Made by a program: the position numbers and the translations under genes. The notes beneath the pieces were generated by a model. The model saw only the letters and a program-made list of their open reading frames with translations, was not told where the DNA came from and ran no database searches. Shown here one piece after another: positions 4,816 to 8,425 of a DNA stretch of 46,807 nt. Each line of letters starts with the position of its first letter. The stretch's first letter is position 1. The DNA comes from Deltaproteobacteria bacterium (lineage in GTDB: Bacteria > Myxococcota > Myxococcia > Myxococcales > SZAS-1): assembly GCA_018266075.1 (NCBI GenBank), contig JAFEBB010000057.1:1-46807 (forward strand), in the 5' to 3' direction.

Positions 4816-5712
4816 TTGCAACTCTCCAACCTGCCGTCGTCGTCGGGCTCGCTGGCGATGTACCTCTCCGAAATCAACCGCTACCCCCTGCTCACACAAG
4901 AGGAGGAGCAGCGGTTGGCTCGGCTGTATCGGAAGAACGGCAACCTGCGCGCCGCGCACATCCTCGTCACCTCGAACCTCCGGTTCGTGGTGAAGGTGAG
5001 CTACGAGTACCGCTCGTACGGCATCAAGATGAGCGACCTCATCCAGGAGGGGAACATCGGCCTGATGAAGGCCGTCGAGAAGTTCGACCCCGACAAGGAC
5101 ATCCGCCTCATCTCCTACGCCGTCTGGTGGATCCGCGCGTACATCCAGAACTACATCCTCAAGTCGTGGTCGCTGGTGAAGCTGGGCACCACCCAGGCCC
5201 AGCGAAAGCTCTTCTTCAGCCTCGCCCGCACCAAGCGCGAGCTGGAGAAGCTGCACGCCGCCGGCGAGAAGCTCGACGCCAAGGAGATCGCCAAGCGGCT
5301 TCGGGTGAAGCCCACCGAAGTGCAGGAGATGGAGCAGCGCATGGAGGGCCGCGACCTCTCGCTCGACGCGCCCATGGGCGATGACGGCGGCAACAGCCAC
5401 GTGGACTTCGTGGTGGGCCACGAGGCGCCGCAAGACGAAGAGCTCAGCTCGAAGCAAGAGCGCGAGCTGGTGACGAGCAAGGTCGAGCTCGCCTTGCGCC
5501 GGCTGGATCAGCGCGAGCGCTTCATCATCGAAAAGCGCGTGATGAGCGACAAGCCCATGACCTTGAAGGAGCTGGGCGAGCACTTCGGCTTCTCGCGCGA
5601 GCGCGCCCGGCAGCTGGAGATCCGGGCGAAGGAGAAGCTGCGCCAGGAGCTGAACCAGCTCGCCGAAGAGCTCGGCGTCGCCGGCGGCACGCCCGTCGAG
5701 CTGCCCATGTAG
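4816..5712 (+). CDS. RNA polymerase sigma factor, RpoH/sigma-32 family (SigB/SigC-like)
   Basis: A 298-residue alternative sigma factor. Region 1.2/2 spans about residues 14-125 with the conserved [19 protein letters not shown] and WWIRAYIQ. The RpoH box QRKLFF lies at about 130-135. Region 4 near the C-terminus has the helix-turn-helix [20 protein letters not shown]. The RpoH box marks it as heat-shock family; in myxobacteria this family has been recruited for development (SigB, SigC), so heat shock or starvation control are both open. The start is TTG behind GGAGG, which likely limits expression. It stands alone, divergent from rpsA, and is followed by a hairpin terminator. Confidence 0.95.
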
Positions 5713-6162: not shown

Positions 6163-6223
6163 CGCCCGTTTGCAGGTGTAGCCCCTTTTGTGGCAAGCAG
6201 CAGCCCGTCCGGAGGAGGAACTG

Positions 6224-7240
6224 GTGGCCGAGCTCGACTTCATGCGCGTGGAGTACAGGGAGCCGCACCTCGTGCGCACCCGCGACATCCTGGCCAAGCA
6301 CCCCGAGGTGCGCAGCCTCTTCGGCAACACGCCCTCCACCGCGATCTTCCTCTTCGCGATTGTGGGCCTGCAGGTCGCCGTGGCCTACGCGCTGCGCGCC
6401 CAGCCGTGGTGGATGGTGCTCATTGCCGCCTACACCATCGGCGCCGTGGCCAACCACGGCTGCTGGGTGCTCATCCACGAGTGCAGCCACAACCTCATCT
6501 TCAAGAAGCCCTGGGCGAACCAGCTCCTGCACATCGTCGCCAACCTGCCGATCGTGGTGCCCAGCTCCATCAGCTTCCGCAAGTACCACCTGCTGCACCA
6601 CAACTATCAGGGCTCCGAGAGCCTCGACGCCGACCTCGCGGCGCCCTTCGAGGCCAAGCTCATCGGCAACACGGCGCTGGGCAAGGCCTTCTGGCTGCTG
6701 ATGTTCCCGCTGTTCCAGGCCATCCGCATCCCGCGGCTCAACAAGATCAAGTTCATCGACAAGTGGTACGTCGGGAACTTCATCGTTCAGTTCGCCTTCG
6801 ACGGCCTGATCATCTACTTCTTCGGCTGGAACGCGTTCCTGTATCTGGCGCTGGCGACATTCTTCAGCGTGGGCCTGCACCCGGTTGGCGCGCGGTGGAT
6901 TCAGGAGCACTTCCTGACCCACGCGCCGCAGGAGACGTACTCGTACTACGGCCCGTACAACATCGTGGCCTTCAACGTGGGCTTCCACAACGAGCACCAC
7001 GACCTGATGCGCGTGCCCTGGTCGCGGCTGCCCGAGGTGAAGCGCCTCGCGCCCGAGTTCTACGAGACGCTGCACTTCCACACCTCGTGGACCAAGCTGC
7101 TGCTGCAGTTCATCTTCGATCCCAAGCTCTCGCTGTACAGCCGCGTGGTGCGCAAGCCCACCGAGCGCGACGCCGAGCTTGCGAGCGCGGCGCCCGTTAT
7201 CCCTGGCGACACCGCCATCTCGCTCAACCCGCAGGCCTAA
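6224..7240 (+). CDS. DES1-like membrane fatty acyl/sphingolipid desaturase
   Basis: A 338-residue integral membrane di-iron desaturase. The GTG start is set by GGAGGAGG at 6211-6218; an upstream TTG has no ribosome site. Histidine boxes are HECSH (residues 85-89), HLLHH (122-126) and HNEHH (255-259). Beyond the boxes, it follows eukaryotic dihydroceramide Delta4-desaturase (DES1/DEGS) closely by my recollection of that family: an N-terminal block with REPH...R..ILAKHPEVRSLFG, ANLPI..P.SISF.KYH..HH.Y.G, and ETYSYYGPYNIVAFNVGFHNEHHD. Several hydrophobic segments flank the boxes. Likely reaction: O2-dependent desaturation of a long-chain base or acyl chain. The next gene is an FA2H-like hydroxylase 2 bp away, so a ceramide-type substrate is inferred. 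A general acyl-lipid desaturase remains possible. Confidence 0.92.
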   Translation: MAELDFMRVEYREPHLVRTRDILAKHPEVRSLFGNTPSTAIFLFAIVGLQVAVAYALRAQPWWMVLIAAYTIGAVANHGCWVLIHECSHNLIFKKPWANQLLHIVANLPIVVPSSISFRKYHLLHHNYQGSESLDADLAAPFEAKLIGNTALGKAFWLLMFPLFQAIRIPRLNKIKFIDKWYVGNFIVQFAFDGLIIYFFGWNAFLYLALATFFSVGLHPVGARWIQEHFLTHAPQETYSYYGPYNIVAFNVGFHNEHHDLMRVPWSRLPEVKRLAPEFYETLHFHTSWTKLLLQFIFDPKLSLYSRVVRKPTERDAELASAAPVIPGDTAISLNPQA

Positions 7241-7242
7241 CC

Positions 7243-7929
7243 ATGTTCTGGCTCGCGCCCCACGAAGCCGTCACGCGTCCCCAGCCGGGAAGCCCGCGCA
7301 TGTTCCGCGTGGAGTTCATCGAGAAGTACCTCTCGCGCGTGAAGCCCTGGCACATCGTCTCGGTGTGGGGCCCGCTCTCGGCGTACCTGCTGTACCGCGG
7401 CCTGCGCGATCCCTCGATGACGCTCGCGACCTGGGCGGAGCTGGTGGCCGGGGGCATCTTCTTCTGGACGCTGCTCGAGTACATCCTCCACCGCGGCGTG
7501 TTTCACTTCCCGTTCAACAAGAAGAGCGAGGTCCAGAATGACCTCTCCTTCCTCATCCACGGCATCCACCACGACTACCCCAACGACGCCGACCGCCTGG
7601 TGATGCCGCCGACGATCACCGCGGTGGTGGCCGTGATGGTGGGCGTGCCGGTGTGGTTCATCGCCGGGCCGCACGCGTTCTTCCCGTTCTTCGGGGCCAC
7701 GATGGTCGGCTACATCTGGTACGACCTCACGCACTACGCGCTGCACCACGTGAAGGCCTTCACGCCCTGGGGCAAGCGCCAGAAGCAGTACCACCTGGTG
7801 CACCACTATCAGACGCCGCACATGCGCTACGGCGTGACCACCCCGCTCTGGGACATCGTCTTCGGGACGTACGTGTGGGGCTCGAGCGCGCCAGCGTCGG
7901 GTGAACAGCAGTCGACCGCCGCGCACTGA
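7243..7929 (+). CDS. FA2H-like fatty acid hydroxylase (sterol desaturase superfamily)
   Basis: A 228-residue membrane di-iron hydroxylase starting at an ATG 2 bp after the desaturase stop. Histidine motifs run in the superfamily order: HRGVFH (83-88), HGIHHDYPND (from 106), DLTHYALHH (161-169) and HLVHH (184-188). HGIHHDYPNDADRLVMPP and GYIWYDLTHYALHH are typical of the fatty acid 2-hydroxylase (FA2H/Scs7) branch, which hydroxylates the N-acyl chain of ceramides; other branches act on sterols or carotenoids. It has four or so membrane spans and lacks the N-terminal cytochrome b5 domain of eukaryotic Scs7/FA2H, so a separate electron donor is needed. Overlap with the next gene (TGATG) shows tight translational coupling. 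Confidence 0.92.
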   Translation: MFWLAPHEAVTRPQPGSPRMFRVEFIEKYLSRVKPWHIVSVWGPLSAYLLYRGLRDPSMTLATWAELVAGGIFFWTLLEYILHRGVFHFPFNKKSEVQNDLSFLIHGIHHDYPNDADRLVMPPTITAVVAVMVGVPVWFIAGPHAFFPFFGATMVGYIWYDLTHYALHHVKAFTPWGKRQKQYHLVHHYQTPHMRYGVTTPLWDIVFGTYVWGSSAPASGEQQSTAAH

Positions 7930-8366
7930 TGGTCGATATTCGCGTCGAGCGGGTGCTGCCCTTTCCGCGCGAGCGCGTCTCCGCGTTCGCCGGCGACCCG
8001 ACCAACGCGCCAGCCTGGTACGCGAACATCAAGTCGGTGGAGTGGAAGACGCCGCCTCCGGTGGTCATCGGATCTCGGATGGCGTTCGTGGCCCAGTTCC
8101 TCGGTCGACGGCTCGCGTACACCTACGAGGTCACAGAGCTGGTCCCGGGCGACAAGCTCGTGATGCGCACCGCCGAAGGTCCATTCCCCATGGAGACGAC
8201 CTACCTCTGGGCGGACGCCGGCCTGGGCCACACGCGAATGGTGCTGCAGAACCGCGGAGAGCCGGCAGGCTTCTCCAAGCTCGCTGCGCCGCTGATGTCC
8301 GTGGCCATGCGCTCGGCGATGGCGAAGGACCTGGCGCGGCTCGAACAGCGCCTCGGTCCGCGCTGA
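7929..8366 (+). CDS. SRPBCC (START-like) family protein
   Basis: A 145-residue soluble protein of the helix-grip polyketide cyclase/START-like superfamily: an N-terminal strand with P.ERV..F..DP.N.P.WY, the GSRMAF...GR.L.YTYEVTEL.PG core, and a long C-terminal helix (AMRSAMAKDLARLEQRL). Such proteins bind hydrophobic ligands in a cavity. It overlaps the hydroxylase stop codon by one base and is followed by a strong terminator, so it is the last gene of the desaturase-hydroxylase cassette. A role in carrying or presenting the lipid substrate is inferred from context only; no specific ligand can be read. Confidence 0.85.
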   Translation: MVDIRVERVLPFPRERVSAFAGDPTNAPAWYANIKSVEWKTPPPVVIGSRMAFVAQFLGRRLAYTYEVTELVPGDKLVMRTAEGPFPMETTYLWADAGLGHTRMVLQNRGEPAGFSKLAAPLMSVAMRSAMAKDLARLEQRLGPR

Positions 8367-8382
8367 GACCGTTTCACAGTTC

Positions 8383-8425
8383 AAAGCCCGCACGCCCGCT
8401 ACCCACGCGGGCGCGCGCGCTTTTT
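8383..8425 (+). terminator. Rho-independent terminator of the lipid-modification cassette
   Basis: Arms 8383-8399 and 8407-8423 pair over 17 positions with two mismatches (core CGCCCGC/GCGGGCG, loop TACCCAC), followed by TTTTT at 8421-8425. It is one of the cleanest terminators in the window. Confidence 0.85.

Follow-up and report, generated by a model that had tools for sequence, protein, structure and literature searches.

Positions 6224-7929 of the window (the whole stretch of 46,807 nucleotides analyzed here, from a myxobacterial genome) probably encode a pair of enzymes that finish ceramides, one placing a 4-ene in the long-chain base and the other a 2-hydroxyl group on the acyl chain. 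The analysis shows the gene structure, the families of the proteins, the conserved active-site histidines, SPT and its neighbor in the genome, the co-occurrence with SPT, and the linkage of the hydroxylase to SPT clusters; from these we infer the substrate, regiochemistry, co-transcription, and order of steps. According to this model, two membrane di-metal enzymes would act on a ceramide or keto precursor made elsewhere in the genome by serine palmitoyltransferase (SPT), a GNAT-type ceramide synthase, and, probably, a reductase of the epimerase type. Desaturation between C4 and C5 of the long-chain base by the DES-family enzyme would yield a sphingosine-type ceramide, and the FA2H-like enzyme would hydroxylate C2 of the N-acyl chain. 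The two genes would be co-transcribed because their products share a lipid substrate and a type of reductant.

The locus contains three genes on the forward strand. These encode a DES-family desaturase (6224-7240; 338 aa, GTG start), a putative FA2H/SCS7-like fatty acid (ceramide) 2-hydroxylase (7243-7929; 228 aa), and an SRPBCC (Polyketide_cyc2) helix-grip protein (7929-8366; 145 aa). Their coordinates agree with the layout given in the preliminary description: 2 bp separate the desaturase from the hydroxylase, and the hydroxylase stop and SRPBCC start share the bases TGATG. A Shine-Dalgarno-like sequence, GGAGGAGG (6211-6218, forward strand), lies five bases 5' of the desaturase GTG, and about 120 bases separate the desaturase from the upstream reading frame. 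A promoter-like site had been proposed ahead of the operon; the promoter scan detected no sigma-70-type promoter in the region, and the site is not supported. The terminator at the other end is also weaker than first described. A hairpin followed by TTTTT (8385-8424, forward strand; scan site 8409-8422) lies 3' of the SRPBCC stop and folds more stably than shuffled sequences (z -2.93), making it a candidate intrinsic terminator, but the number of terminator-like sites found by the scan of the region was not above that in shuffles. Further upstream, the window encodes a sigma-70-family factor with regions 1.2, 2, and 4 (4816-5712, same strand, about 500 bases ahead of the desaturase gene) and a small Rieske [2Fe-2S] protein whose N-terminus is lipoprotein-like (1940-2413).

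Comparison of domains, residues, and phylogeny supports the assignment of the first gene to the DES (sphingolipid desaturase) family and not to the acyl desaturases of the genome, as its original DES-like designation implied. The protein scores 94.9 bits against the Pfam model FA_desaturase (PF00487), above the curated cut-off, and its residues 5-37 match Lipid_DES (PF08557) with 38.8 bits against a cut-off of 23. In Pfam, Lipid_DES represents the N-terminal part of sphingolipid Delta4-desaturases. Among the nine FA_desaturase members of the genome, the domain is found in the window desaturase only, and it was detected in none of 14 control genomes. The histidine boxes (H85/H89, H122/H125/H126, H255/H258/H259) are invariant across the sequences of 17 relatives, in which the run QETYSYYGP.N...NVG.HNEHHD is also largely kept. 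The NCBIfam equivalog models for DesA and DesB, whose cut-off is 500 bits, score it at 18.1 and 27.6 bits.

In a tree of 45 bacterial proteins, seven of them other desaturases of the genome, the window desaturase falls in a supported clade (97/99) with DES proteins from Myxococcota and Bdellovibrionota. This clade is nested in a bacterial DES family that also takes in proteins from Bacteroidota, Ignavibacteriota, Gemmatimonadota, and KSB1, and these seven desaturases fall outside that family (93/93, on long branches). A DesA/DesB-type acyl desaturase identity was rejected because of the model scores and the tree. No relative able to root the tree was found on viral contigs. Searches of the PDB with the desaturase sequence and profile returned nothing useful, and structure comparison gave only weak matches, to AlkB and SCD1. 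The family is widespread: the contig scan detected at least 578 relatives, and Lipid_DES scores above its cut-off in 34 of 195 Myxococcota genomes and in 40 of 395 genomes sampled from the phylum of a Mucilaginibacter (Bacteroidota-type). In large-genome relatives of family f3, including Archangium and Hyalangium (L040-L049, L052-L062), two DES paralogues are often present: one is 319 aa long and has the highest Lipid_DES scores, and the other, of 330-390 aa, resembles the window desaturase.

The second gene is supported as FA2H/SCS7-like by similar comparisons. Its product scores 69 bits against FA_hydroxylase (PF04116), above the curated Pfam cut-off, and matches yeast SCS7 (4zr1) with an E-value of 3.1e-31 and 37% identity over the catalytic domain. 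All ten histidines of the SCS7 di-metal centre, which we take from the SCS7 structure to be metal ligands, are present in seven bacterial proteins as well as in SCS7 itself. A Pfam search of the 228 residues found no cytochrome b5 domain; together with the SCS7 match and the ten histidines, this bears out the earlier account of an FA2H-like hydroxylase without that domain. An N-terminal cytochrome b5 domain occurs in the animal and fungal FA2H/SCS7 proteins and not in the plant forms. PMC10002949 likewise describes plant FAH as having no such domain. As the position of the hydroxylase inside its own tree is poorly supported, we used only identity and gene context for this protein. The same genome has a second FA2H-like gene on contig C80 (G000; L227:7334-8119), which is 57% identical to the window hydroxylase and has a GMC oxidoreductase gene and a phosphodiesterase-type gene as neighbors, not SPT.

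The third gene is best read as a local addition to the pair. Its product scores 51.7 bits against PF10604, above the curated Pfam cut-off, and its AlphaFold2 model (pLDDT 92.4) adopts the helix-grip SRPBCC fold. The nearest structure identified by Foldseek is 2d4r (TM 0.84), TTHA0849, a protein without assigned function, and the proteins matched by fold are generic SRPBCC proteins. Relatives are present in 13 of the 195 Myxococcota genomes, and none of them outside the window lies beside a DES or hydroxylase gene. The START-like lipid-carrier role first suggested for this protein was abandoned, given the absence of linkage to lipid enzymes among these relatives.

The preliminary description proposed a search for SPT and ceramide synthase genes in the same genome, and contig C35 carries an SPT-like gene followed directly by a GNAT-family gene (L029:11421-12608). 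The SPT-like protein scores 521.5 bits against NF047600, below the cut-off of 640 and well above the 294 bits of a genuine BioF; it is named for its distance in score from BioF/KBL and for its context. Because none of the Myxococcota genomes reaches 640 bits, the break in scores was used as the SPT threshold for this phylum (about 420 bits and above, with ambiguous values of 404-412 counted as absent). Another SPT candidate, on contig C19, proved to be a genuine BioF (449.5 bits to bioF, cut-off 426; 294 bits to the SPT model). The GNAT-family neighbor of SPT is a ceramide-synthase candidate: in other groups, a GNAT gene adjoins SPT in 27 of 30 SPT loci from genomes bearing the desaturase, often with an epimerase-family gene nearby as well. 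Since bCerS is GNAT-like and CerR is epimerase-like, such an arrangement fits the bacterial ceramide pathway with its Spt, bCerS, and CerR. The reductase candidate of the window genome, on contig C88, is weaker, being only about 34% identical to the candidates that adjoin SPT elsewhere. A PAP2-family gene (L029:8671-9744, G000:C35) lies divergent to SPT and has homologues near SPT in several genomes; it is possibly a sphingolipid head-group enzyme.

With respect to gene neighborhood, the hydroxylase is better linked to SPT than the desaturase. In five Myxococcota genomes, SPT and a close relative of the hydroxylase are separated by 0.07-3.4 kb: the distance is 3.3-3.4 kb in three (G037, G051, G017), and the genes are immediate neighbors in two (G055, G189). 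In eight Bacteroidota genomes, 5-9 kb separate SPT from an FA2H homologue. The one Bacteroidota cluster annotated in full, from Mucilaginibacter (L268:4146-13990), contains genes for SPT, GNAT, an epimerase, inositol-1-phosphate synthase, a CDP-alcohol phosphatidyltransferase, and the FA2H homologue, together with one further large gene, and is likely a ceramide phosphoinositol cluster. When four other Bacteroidota clusters were checked by tblastn, the GNAT gene was found in three and not in that of Pedobacter (L269). Ceramide phosphoinositol has been reported from Myxococcus xanthus (PMC9246714). For the desaturase, none of 80 loci from other genomes has a hydroxylase, SPT, GNAT, or SRPBCC gene within 6 kb. 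The desaturase-hydroxylase pair occurs in the same order in the window genome and in genus g18, which belongs to another family, and was found in no other genome.

This distribution would be expected if the adjacency were incidental, that is, if both were sphingolipid genes forming no functional unit and the SRPBCC gene belonged elsewhere. The pair is confined to two places, the hydroxylase otherwise sits at SPT and the desaturase stands alone, and the relatives of the SRPBCC gene never adjoin either enzyme gene. We nevertheless regard an incidental arrangement as somewhat unlikely: the 2-bp gap and the overlap point to one transcript, and the g18 desaturase groups with that of g16 and not with the window desaturase. 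As the same order is found in two families whose desaturases are apart in the tree, the pair has either arisen more than once or been retained in these two and lost repeatedly elsewhere.

Both enzymes of the proposed ceramide-finishing pair track SPT by co-occurrence over several phyla. SPT is present in 29 of the 34 desaturase-bearing Myxococcota genomes, compared with 59 of the other 161 (Fisher p 1.5e-7, inflated by relatedness). A hand tally per genus gives 12 of 17 with the desaturase and 14 of 73 without it (p 9e-5, again inflated by relatedness). A second set of 36 desaturase-bearing genomes from several phyla was reached through named desaturase loci and overlaps the 195-genome set in a few Myxococcota; SPT reaches 470 bits or more in 30 of these, although the base rate of SPT in Bacteroidota is high, and an FA2H homologue is present in 33. 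Clear SPT is absent from five of the 34 desaturase-bearing Myxococcota and six of the 36 genomes in the second set. A close relative of the hydroxylase without any SPT-like gene occurs in twelve genomes, 11 of which belong to family f7, and the hydroxylase may therefore act on lipids other than sphingolipids too. The f7 hydroxylase (L228-L230; G013, G026, G006) has conserved neighbors of its own, namely clusters c20-c22.

The family and co-occurrence evidence would also fit a desaturase homologue that works on the sphingoid base with another outcome, either C4-hydroxylation to a phytoceramide in the manner of DES2 or a double bond elsewhere in the base. The eukaryotic DES family includes bifunctional Delta4-desaturase/C4-hydroxylases, and sequence alone does not separate the two activities; no result obtained here argues against such an outcome, and C4-hydroxylation is a serious alternative, although we consider the reading as a whole unlikely. 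It is more doubtful still that both enzymes act on the acyl chains of glycerolipids, on ether lipids, or on free fatty acids, with an indirect link to ceramide: the f7 hydroxylase relatives, the desaturase-bearing genomes without SPT, and the in vitro assay of FA2H on free fatty acids (PMC10002949) speak for it, and the co-occurrence with SPT, the association of hydroxylase genes with SPT clusters in two phyla, the presence of Lipid_DES, and DesA/DesB matches of 18-28 bits against a cut-off of 500 speak against it.

A pair acting on ceramide remains our preferred interpretation. Against it count the SPT scores below the cut-off, the rarity of the pairing, the hydroxylase relatives and the desaturases in genomes with no clear SPT, the weak structure matches, and the low identity of the reductase candidate. 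The preliminary description of the locus as a ceramide-modification cassette holds for the DES and FA2H families, the sphingolipid genes in the genome, and the tracking of SPT; its START carrier and its promoter are not supported.

Bacterial sphingolipids have mostly been described as dihydroceramides. Animals and fungi rely on DES and FA2H to introduce a double bond and a hydroxyl group into ceramides. The presence of myxobacterial relatives of both side by side, in a genome with ceramide-building genes, suggests that some bacteria finish ceramides much as eukaryotes do. The occurrence of a DES family tied to SPT across several bacterial phyla leads us to expect ceramides of the sphingosine type in soil and predatory bacteria. 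This bears on the lipids that bacteria release to their eukaryotic neighbors and on the origin of the eukaryotic ceramide-modifying enzymes. More tentatively, the bacterial DES family (above the Pfam cut-off in 34 of the 195 Myxococcota genomes and 40 of the 395 Bacteroidota-type genomes sampled, in addition to Bdellovibrionota, Gemmatimonadota, and KSB1) might provide many bacteria with eukaryotic-type Delta4-unsaturated, often 2-hydroxylated ceramides, and eukaryotic DES1 and FA2H might share ancestry with the bacterial pool.

The preliminary description knew of no account of a dedicated operon of this sort with a START partner, a claim of novelty that has to be narrowed. Our search of the open-licence literature turned up neither a bacterial DES family nor a DES-hydroxylase pair, and the word desaturase does not occur in PMC6148460, a review published in 2018 on sphingolipid biosynthesis in man and microbes. 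Ring, Schwaer, and Bode (2009, as cited in the review PMC10002949) reported functional 2-hydroxylases of the FA2H-like kind from myxobacteria, with a link to sphingolipids, and the hydroxylase half of the pair is therefore known in kind. Those enzymes are like that of the window in enzyme kind, bacterial group, and link to sphingolipids, and the account of them in this review makes no mention of an operon with a DES gene.

Among known systems, the window desaturase resembles eukaryotic DES1/DEGS1 (PF00487 and PF08557) in its Lipid_DES N-terminus, its three histidine boxes, and its length; it differs in being bacterial and paired with a hydroxylase gene. The hydroxylase is likewise similar to FA2H/SCS7 in its 37% identity to the SCS7 catalytic domain and its ten metal-ligand histidines, whereas it is bacterial, lacks the fused cytochrome b5, and belongs to a family linked to an SPT or DES gene. 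The Spt-bCerS-CerR system of Caulobacter (reference in PMC11765627) is paralleled by the clusters of SPT, GNAT, and epimerase genes in desaturase-bearing genomes, but the window genome has its SPT and GNAT genes on a contig other than that of the window, and its reductase candidate is separate from them. Caulobacter CC_0202 (PMC11324152) is comparable in that it hydroxylates the amide-linked acyl chain of a bacterial sphingolipid; it is annotated as a desaturase/hydroxylase of the DesA family, in contrast to the FA2H-like hydroxylase of the window.
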